A program made the position numbers and the translations under genes. From positions 186,001 to 250,000 of the forward strand of contig CATQIJ010000006.1 of assembly GCA_958296345.1 (NCBI GenBank): 64,000 bases of DNA, given 5' to 3'. This DNA is from an uncultured Rhizobiaceae bacterium (GTDB lineage: Bacteria > Pseudomonadota > Alphaproteobacteria > Rhizobiales > Rhizobiaceae). Shown here piece by piece: positions 13,623 through 15,503 of this stretch (positions are counted from its first letter, which is position 1; each line of letters begins with the position of its first letter). The notes under the pieces were generated by a model. It was not told where the DNA came from and made no database searches. It saw only the letters and a program-made list of their open reading frames with translations.

Positions 13623-15503
13623 ATGGTTGCTATTCAAAAAGCTGGTCATAACCCTGCAATTAATGCGCAGGCTCAAAAACCAAATAATGATGCGAGTGCT
13701 AACAAAGCATTCTCTGCACAACTGCAGGCCGCTTCTTACAATCAAAAAGAAACTACTTATAAACTTACTGACGGACGTACTTTCACGATAAGTGGTAATA
13801 CTGGCGTACTTTCAGGCGGTGGTTTCAACATTAAATATACAGGCGTAAAAACTGATGCGTATGGCAACGTTACTGCTTCACAAGGTAGTGGTACTCGTAA
13901 TGGTGAAGATACAATGGCTAAGCAGCATGGTGGTAATGCGCTTATTATTCATGCAAAAAGGGGCAGGCTTTTCACATGGCTAACTGGTGGTGACTACATC
14001 GCTCAAGTTAAATCTAAACATGTTTCTCAGCCTGGTCCACAAGGTCCTAAAGGTGACAAGGGCGATACTGGAGCAACTGGCGCAAAAGGCGACAAGGGTG
14101 ATACTGGTGCTACTGGTGCTACTGGTGCTACTGGTGCTACTGGTGCTACTGGTGCTACTGGTGCTACTGGTGCTACTGGTGCTACTGGTGCTACTGGTGC
14201 TACTGGTGCTACTGGTGCTACTGGCGCAAAAGGCGACAAGGGTGATACTGGTGCTACTGGCGCAAAAGGCGACAAGGGTGATACTGGTGCTACTGGTGCT
14301 ACTGGTGCTACTGGTGCTACTGGTGCTACTGGCGCAAAAGGCGACAAGGGTGATACTGGTGCTACTGGTGCTACTGGTGCTACTGGTGCTACTGGTGCTA
14401 CTGGCGCAAAAGGCGACAAGGGTGCTACTGGTGCTACTGGCGCAAAAGGCGACAAGGGTGCTACTGGTGCTACTGGCGCAAAAGGCGACAAAGGCGATAC
14501 TGGTGCTACTGGCGCAAAAGGCGACAAGGGTGATACTGGTGCTACTGGTGCTACTGGCGCAAAAGGCGACAAGGGTGATACTGGTGCTACTGGTGCTACT
14601 GGCGCAAAAGGCGACAAGGGTGATACTGGTGCTACTGGTGCAAAAGGCGACAAAGGCGATACTGGTGCAGCTGGTGCTGACGGCAAAGATGGCGTTCAAG
14701 CTGAAGCTGACAAGAATAAAGATGGTATCATCAGCAATGATGAACTTCGTACTGCTCTTCGCCCAGACGCTGACATCAATGGCGATGGTCATGTAACAGC
14801 TGCTGAATTAGCTGAAACAGACAAAGGTGCAAAAGGCCATAATGGTAAAGACGGTACTAACGGCAAAGACGGCGTTAACGGTACTAATGGTAAAGACGGC
14901 ACTAACGGTACTAACGGCAAAGACGGCACTAACGGTACTAACGGCAAAGATGGCGTTAACGGTACTAATGGTAAAGACGGCACTAACGGCAAAGATGGCG
15001 TTAACGGTACTAACGGCAAAGATGGCGTTAACGGTACTAACGGCAAAGACGGCGCTGATGGTAAAGATGCTCACGTTCACATTACCTTCGGTGGTAAAGG
15101 TCGTGGACATGCAGCGCACGCTGGTGCAACGAATAGCGTTAACAATGCTATTAATTCTTCACATGCTGCTGCTAACCAGAACGTATCATTTGGTAGTTCG
15201 TCTTCAGCTTCTTCGAATGAAGTTACTCAAATCTTTAAACAGATCACTGAAGTTCTTCAGCGTTTGCTAAAAAACTTAGGTAGTTCATCTTCAATGTCTT
15301 CTGGTTCTGCATCAGGCGCTGGTAACATTTCTGCAGAAATCAAGCAGATCTTAGGCGAAGTAACTAAGTTACTTGAGCAAATTGCTTCACTTCTTAATGG
15401 TGGTGGTCAAAGCTCTGGTGCTGAGCATGTTTGCAACAAAGCTATCGATCAGACTAAAGACGCTGTAGATCAAGTTAAAGCTTACGCTTCTAACGATTAC
15501 TAA
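13623..15503 (+). CDS. Collagen-like repeat protein with paired EF-hands
   Basis: This 626-residue protein lies beside the type III secretion locus and has no Sec or Tat signal. Residues 1-137 form a Gln/Asn-rich head with a small globular segment (YKLTDGRTFTISGNTG, later HGGNALIIHAKRGRLFTW). Residues 138-357 are collagen-like Gly-X-Y triplets, mainly GAT, GDK and GDT. Residues 357-400 hold two perfect 12-residue EF-hand loops (DKNKDGIISNDE and DINGDGHVTAAE). Residues 402-483 are a second Gly-X-Y block built on GKDG and GTN. The Ser-rich tail contains two amphipathic helices (EVTQIFKQITEVLQRLLKNL and EIKQILGEVTKLLEQIASLL). ATG 13623 follows AAAGGATAATACG. I infer a surface or secreted calcium-binding fibre, possibly a type III substrate; the function is unproven. 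Confidence 0.85.
   Translation: MVAIQKAGHNPAINAQAQKPNNDASANKAFSAQLQAASYNQKETTYKLTDGRTFTISGNTGVLSGGGFNIKYTGVKTDAYGNVTASQGSGTRNGEDTMAKQHGGNALIIHAKRGRLFTWLTGGDYIAQVKSKHVSQPGPQGPKGDKGDTGATGAKGDKGDTGATGATGATGATGATGATGATGATGATGATGATGATGATGAKGDKGDTGATGAKGDKGDTGATGATGATGATGATGAKGDKGDTGATGATGATGATGATGAKGDKGATGATGAKGDKGATGATGAKGDKGDTGATGAKGDKGDTGATGATGAKGDKGDTGATGATGAKGDKGDTGATGAKGDKGDTGAAGADGKDGVQAEADKNKDGIISNDELRTALRPDADINGDGHVTAAELAETDKGAKGHNGKDGTNGKDGVNGTNGKDGTNGTNGKDGTNGTNGKDGVNGTNGKDGTNGKDGVNGTNGKDGVNGTNGKDGADGKDAHVHITFGGKGRGHAAHAGATNSVNNAINSSHAAANQNVSFGSSSSASSNEVTQIFKQITEVLQRLLKNLGSSSSMSSGSASGAGNISAEIKQILGEVTKLLEQIASLLNGGGQSSGAEHVCNKAIDQTKDAVDQVKAYASNDY
14034..14693 (+). repeat. Collagen-like repeat block 1
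   Basis: Tandem 9-bp units encoding Gly-Ala-Thr (GGTGCTACT) alternate with GCAAAAGGCGACAAGGGTGA-type units encoding AKGDKGD. Runs of more than a dozen identical 9-mers (about 14098-14222) show almost no synonymous drift, which implies recent expansion or homogenisation. Unit number is likely to vary between strains, and changes in multiples of nine keep the reading frame. Confidence 0.9.
14827..15070 (+). repeat. Collagen-like repeat block 2
   Basis: The second Gly-X-Y block is built on a different unit, GGTACTAACGGCAAAGACGG and variants, encoding GTNGKDG and GKDGVN. It is separated from block 1 by the EF-hand pair. It is Asn/Asp/Lys-rich, whereas block 1 is Ala/Thr-rich. Confidence 0.9.

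Follow-up and report, generated by a model that had tools for sequence, protein, structure and literature searches.

A collagen-like EF-hand protein linked to a diverged type III secretion cluster in uncultured Rhizobiaceae, a candidate for export as a calcium-responsive fibre

Bacteria are known to make collagen-like proteins as fibres of the cell surface or of phages, whereas type III secretion systems (T3SSs) are known as injectors. The Bucl proteins of Burkholderia and the prophage collagens of E. coli combine Gly-X-Y rods with non-collagen ends; excerpts of the respective sources locate the E. coli proteins in prophages (PMC3368898) and describe Bucl4 as having an export-apparatus domain and as itself being a machine part (PMC4565658). 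Calcium-type proteins encoded with a T3SS are represented by NopE1, NopE2 and VIC_001052, which contain DUF1521 and undergo calcium-induced autocleavage, and calcium-driven folding from disorder has been measured for a type III-secreted DUF1521 protein from a Vibrio T3SS cluster (PMC6506597, in part). For the rhizobial T3SS pilus (NopA, NopB, NopX), the available portions of two papers give a length of 63–71 aa for the pilin NopA in rhizobia (PMC3973906), a position of nopA directly upstream of rhcD/y4yQ (PMC3973906, PMC10970691) and a promotion of NopA cleavage by calcium in a rhizobium (PMC10970691). Among the open-access papers listed by literature searches, none reports a collagen-like type III substrate in its title or the first part of its abstract.

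The gene studied here, termed Col, lies in a 64,000-nucleotide stretch of DNA (the window), the features of which are collected in Table 1. As an earlier note on this DNA had described, it specifies a 626-residue protein in which two different Gly-X-Y blocks flank a pair of EF-hands, and ORF, Pfam matches and triplet count agree on this arrangement. The protein belongs to both the Pfam Collagen (PF01391; E = 7e-48, 160.7 bits, cut-off 27.2) and EF-hand (PF00036; 28.8 bits, cut-off 25.4) families, with both of the loops named earlier fitting the canonical 12-residue pattern. Block 1 is built mostly from GAT, GDK, GAK and GDT triplets, and block 2 is of another kind (mostly GKD and GTN), with the repeat copy number being that of one assembly. 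Col is low in proline and contains a single cysteine, located in the C-terminal domain, where Ser-rich linkers are also found. It thus resembles the surface and phage collagens in its rods and non-collagen ends, but differs from them in that it belongs to a type III-linked family, holds EF-hands between its rods and has no Sec signal as judged by eye. On inspection by eye, the N-terminus is without a hydrophobic core, in keeping with the absence of a Sec or Tat signal claimed previously; furthermore, Pfam searches of Col returned neither RTX repeats (PF00353) nor an autotransporter domain.

Table 1. Positions of Col, its parts and neighbouring features in the window
Feature	Position	Strand	Remarks
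Poor box match before Col	13490..13513	+	9.7 bits, 133 bp before start; doubtful
Col, collagen-like EF-hand protein	13623..15503	+	626 aa, ATG start
Orphan N-terminal part, residues 1-137	13623..14033	+	
Gly-X-Y block 1, residues 138-359, 74 triplets	14034..14699	+	
EF-hand loop 1, residues 363-374	14709..14744	+	canonical 12-residue pattern, Pfam
EF-hand loop 2, residues 384-395	14772..14807	+	canonical 12-residue pattern, Pfam
Gly-X-Y block 2, residues 402-482, 27 triplets	14826..15068	+	
C-terminal domain, conserved, modelled as four helices	15069..15500	+	
Upstream box of class-2 gene	15720..15743	+	
Class-2 pilin-like gene, 60 aa	15824..16006	+	between Col and sctU
sctU	16714..17784	-	below equivalog cut-off
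sctT	17794..18588	-	below cut-off
sctS	18598..18867	-	below cut-off
sctR	18880..19527	-	above cut-off
sctQ-like	19582..20613	-	FliMN_C at 21.4 bits (below the cut-off of 23.8); unmatched in NCBIfam
sctN	21081..22439	-	above FliI/YscN subfamily cut-off, below SctN cut-off
sctL-like	22439..23074	-	below cut-off
sctJ	23694..24467	-	above cut-off
sctV	25339..27441	-	below equivalog cut-off
sctD/rhcD-like, Y4YQ C-terminal domain	28591..29604	-	PF23893 34.0 bits, cut-off 27; TIGR02500 weak
Class-1 pilin-like gene, 61 aa	29668..29853	-	nopA position
Short sctC-type gene	29967..30602	-	Secretin_N only, weak
LuxR-type response regulator	30599..31300	-	

The type III secretion locus previously suggested to adjoin Col is borne out by sct genes spanning 16714–30602 on the strand opposite to Col. 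As SctR and SctJ score above curated cut-offs and the other Sct models fall below equivalog cut-offs, we regard the system as diverged. An additional ORF of 147 residues between the class-2 gene and sctU (16095–16538, minus strand) had no match in the fetched loci and no Pfam match over cut-off, and may not be a gene. The two full secretin genes of this genome (L048 and L049; contigs C12 and C13) are found in loci that we named Tad pilus-like by eye, and in another genome a locus so named (L058:14716–20608) lies directly beside the T3SS. The pairing of Tad-like secretin loci with a cluster that holds only a short secretin N-domain gene recalls RhcC2 of rhizobia, which is Tad-derived according to excerpts of PMC4311626.

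Relatives of the locus were collected by scanning genome contigs for SctR, keeping 80 of 228 confirmed loci. SctR was 83–97 % identical in L050–L055, which are metagenome-assembled genomes (MAGs) of an uncultured Rhizobiaceae group bacterium, 73 % in Zhengella mangrovi (L056), 60–66 % in other Hyphomicrobiales (L057–L063) and 43 % or less in the remaining 66 loci. Among the 80 kept loci, Gly-X-Y runs of at least 8 were present in L050, L051 and L053, as well as in L080, which was discarded because its genes are flagellar (FliP scores above cut-off) and its short collagen run belongs to an autotransporter; the gene in question (L080:11749–14571, plus strand; Enterobacter sp. CC120223-11) stands just after a fliR-type gene. 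Whole-genome searches added two further members of the Col family: one in the L055 genome (G236:C240), beside the cluster regulator, and one in the L050 genome (G231:C24, equal to L196), on a contig of 3.9 kb, where the end of an sctU is present as well. Six collagen genes in five genomes were therefore available, the window included, and none of the six is further than ∼4.1 kb from either sctU or the regulator gene of the cluster: the distance to sctU is 1.2 kb in the window, 4.1 kb in L050, 2.9 kb in L051, 2.0 kb in L053 and 2.3 kb in L196, and that to the regulator is 0.3 kb in G236. The five genes from outside the window are cut by contig ends within their repeats, and their readable parts contain no EF-hands, which are seen in the window Col only; repeat blocks differ between copies. 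The L052 contig ends inside its class-2 gene, and L054 has no collagen gene up to the end of the contig data. In the L050 genome, collagen genes occur near two sctU sequences, yet there is one SctR hit, and the second copy may stem from strain mixing in this 58 %-complete MAG. Collagen hits in L200–L203 were judged unrelated by eye. A viral or plasmid origin was likewise discarded, as 31 pattern stretches in viral contigs were all unrelated to the C-terminal profile and no plasmid match was obtained.

The distribution of the C-terminal domain was compared with that of the T3SS across 12 genomes of the genus, with a T3SS called by SctR at no less than 83 % identity. Seven genomes qualified (G000, G001, G003, G005, G007, G009 and G011), and the domain was detected in G000, G001, G005, G009 and G011 (the last at E = 1.3e-4), which is to say in 5/7 T3SS-bearing and 0/5 other genomes (one-sided Fisher 0.027). 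The two T3SS-bearing genomes without a hit are 71 % (G003) and 84 % (G007) complete. For the other five, SctR searches gave only 38–39 % identical hits in G004 and G008, as flagellar FliP would, and none in G002 (75 % complete), G006 and G010. Extending the C-terminal profile to 394 genomes of the family produced hits in seven, of which the four strong ones (G000, G001, G005 and G011) are all within the T3SS-bearing part of the genus; those in G171, G610 and G685 (E 0.001–0.009) are at chance level over 394 genomes and were not accepted as carriers. The earlier note had said that its proposal would be refuted by homologues occurring chiefly where type III genes are lacking, and this is not what these family genomes show. 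Both linkage to and co-occurrence with sct genes, as looked for in a type III substrate, were observed. A connection formerly drawn from one locus has therefore gained comparative support (5/7 versus 0/5; 6/6 genes linked), with secretion itself forming part of the prediction put forward below.

No relatives of residues 1–137 were found among 228 candidates in a database search and, with the N-terminus an orphan, no conserved leader is visible; its model is poor (pLDDT 45.5), with moderate-confidence strands at about residues 44–98. Residues 1–22 lack Asp, Glu and Leu, a property unique among the 41 listed genes of the window, and on this composition constitute a possible export leader, with only 3 Ser present in the first 50 residues. 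At the other end, a database search with residues 484–626 found no relatives among 1504 candidates; however, the C-termini of the collagen relatives align, being 31–62 % identical to the window copy. With the latter as reference, dN/dS is 0.20–0.61, from which we infer that the C-terminal domain is under selection. Two amphipathic helices had been proposed here, a point on which we differ: AlphaFold2, run on six aligned relatives, returned four (mean pLDDT 71). When this model was used in a fold search, the matches were all to four-helix bundles of a general kind, the best having E 0.041 and none reaching 0.001.

Two small pilin-like genes accompany the sct cluster (Table 1), and they are paralogues. 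The class-1 copy lies directly upstream of the Y4YQ-domain gene, and it alone occupies the NopA/SctF-type position; the class-2 copy, the 'needle-like gene' of the earlier note, stands elsewhere. The likeness to the rhizobial pilus is one of position and length (60–61 residues here), and the locus differs from it in that a collagen gene is present and the pilin-like gene is doubled. We defined class 1 as operon copies ending in KKGADLYALKQRPQ or a close variant of it, and class 2 as extra copies with TTT[VI]KGADL; among the matches listed (120 of 176 database relatives), 77 were class 1, 25 class 2 and 18 neither. The 60-residue proteins gave no Pfam match over cut-off and no needle in the PDB at E ≤ 10, and a class-2 profile matched 2 of 397 genomes of the order, one being the genome of the window. 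For 5/6 collagen genes, a class-2 gene follows on the same strand, 320–510 bp 3′ of the collagen gene; in G236 the two are on opposite sides of the cluster. A census of 13 class-2 copies in eight genomes (G000 and G231–G237) placed five after a collagen gene, one after a Gly-rich repeat gene (Zhengella), six without a collagen or repeat neighbour in the at least 1.5 kb seen, and one at a contig end.

A box near CTAAGTAGTnATTGCGnATAT precedes the class-2 gene of the window and 10 other class-2 genes. These 11 of the 13 class-2 genes were aligned upstream, and each has its best match to the box at 87–104 bp before the start; leave-one-out scores are 11.6–25.0 bits, compared with 12.8–16.3 bits for the best chance site in simulated 64-kb sequence, with the seed taken from the window's own class-2 copy. 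The site before Col scores 9.7 versus 9.5 bits (first of 39 regions), below the genuine range, and was rejected as proof of shared control. Of the leader previously said to be shared by Col and the needle-like gene, what stands is AAAGGATAA, common to both just before the ATG; given the poor box match, we regard the claim as weak.

Calcium-binding-type proteins recur in related clusters. In Zhengella mangrovi, tandem Gly/His-rich repeat genes occupy L056:14243–20304 (minus strand); three are complete and a fourth is truncated where the contig ends. Two types of C-terminus alternate among their products, and EF-hand-like loops occur in one of these types. The array is downstream of and convergent with sctU, beside a class-2 gene, and two of its proteins match EF-hand_5 (30.3 and 29.9 bits, cut-off 25.9), with one canonical EF loop each. 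Rhabdaerophilum sp. SD176 encodes a 586-residue protein (L206:4835–6592, plus strand) that combines DUF1521 with helices and RTX repeats, and the gene for it adjoins a short sctC-type gene. DUF1521 was found in 3 of the 15 genomes of the set (Rhabdaerophilum, Alsobacter and the L062 MAG), each time on the T3SS contig within ∼13 kb of sctR, and was absent from the members of the window's genus that were searched. The Col locus is hence similar to those of NopE1/NopE2 and VIC_001052 in encoding a calcium-type protein with a T3SS; unlike them, Col has collagen rods and EF-hands and no DUF1521 (PF07481), which by Pfam search is absent from the protein and is also missing from its genome. The C-terminal profile of the Col family was compared with these proteins and with 500 shuffles. 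It scored 18.4 bits on the Alsobacter protein, at its helical start rich in Gly and Ser (best shuffle, 4.9), 10.7 on the Rhabdaerophilum protein (best shuffle, 10.6) and 4.7 on that of L062 (best shuffle, 5.2); as such, a helical module common to the Col family and DUF1521 proteins is supported by sequence in one of three cases, that of Alsobacter. The idea of a calcium response is strengthened by these related clusters, with calcium binding by Col itself being predicted.

Considering all of the above, we propose, with a probability of roughly 60 %, that Col is a collagen fibre exported by the T3SS and assembled outside the cell in response to calcium, a reading drawn from sequence comparison. 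Type III substrates cross unfolded. With N-terminal residues acting as the export leader, the Col chain, having little proline, one cysteine and EF-hands presumably empty at cytosolic calcium, could do the same. Outside, higher calcium would fold the EF-hand pair between the two rods, the Gly-X-Y blocks would wind into triple helices, and trimers of the rods could arise; at the collagen rise of 0.286 nm per residue, the rods would measure some 63 and 23 nm. The C-terminal helices would join or anchor fibre ends, and may do so on filaments built from the second pilin; the likely job of the whole would be that of a tether or adhesin helping the injectisome to reach a host or surface. This fibre reading is supported by the distribution (5/7 versus 0/5), the linkage of 6/6 genes, the class-2 neighbour of 5/6, the dN/dS values, the calcium-type proteins of related clusters, the folding reported in excerpts of PMC6506597, residues 1–22, and the lack of RTX or autotransporter domains. 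Counted against it are the orphan N-terminus, the 3 Ser in 50 residues, EF-hands in the window only, G003 and G007, the poor Col box, the possible strain mixing in L050, the class-2 genes standing alone (6/13) and the conserved C-terminal tail, which might act as a type I signal. More tentatively, and with the odds against it, the injectisome might bear a collagen-tipped or collagen-coated filament, made from the second pilin together with a collagen chain locked by calcium, that tethers a host.

A different type III role is conceivable, in which Col would be an effector or translocation helper, its collagen a spacer, with activity residing in the amphipathic C-terminal helices in the manner of harpins and translocators. 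The helices with Ser/Gly-rich linkers in the Col C-terminus would suit such a role; however, a 74-triplet rod is odd cargo, and Pfam returned no harpin-family or effector-family domain in Col, leading us to consider this unlikely. No NolX match was found in 15 genomes, but the controls were equally silent, and this result says little.

The genus also contains a second collagen-like family (L008:8749–10551 on contig C2 of the window's own genome; L195, L197, L198 and L199), in which a Gly-X-Y block, mostly of GxDG type, is followed by RTX-like repeats. Like Col, the L008 protein joins a collagen block to a calcium-type domain, but its RTX repeats are C-terminal, its ends differ and it is not beside a T3SS; the family as a whole lies away from the T3SS and was set apart from Col on its repeats and ends. 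RTX-type proteins are a type I-like sort, and their presence, together with the conserved C-terminal end of the Col relatives, as a possible type I signal, would fit Col being a surface or matrix protein that leaves by another route and is a mere neighbour of the T3SS. We give this somewhat less credence than an effector role, as Col has no RTX repeats, searches for the C-terminal domain gave no hit in the five genomes of the genus that lack a T3SS, and 6/6 collagen genes are linked to the cluster. Least probable is that a fast-changing repeat gene hitch-hikes on a T3SS island without a role there, for although the N-terminus is an orphan, repeat blocks vary between copies and class-2 genes without collagen exist, the C-terminal domain appears to be under selection, the collagen gene of the L055 genome is linked from the other side of the cluster and Zhengella has another repeat-protein array in the same place.

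If the fibre reading is true, export of such a structure would represent a novel function of type III secretion. Were the link conserved, a machine built for injection could also deposit a long fibre that serves as a tether and responds to extracellular calcium as a switch. Such a link further predicts that the second pilin copy has a specialised function, and that this little-studied group of type III systems has a class of long substrates that fold with calcium, encoded around the same cluster and occurring in collagen, EF-hand, RTX and DUF1521 forms.
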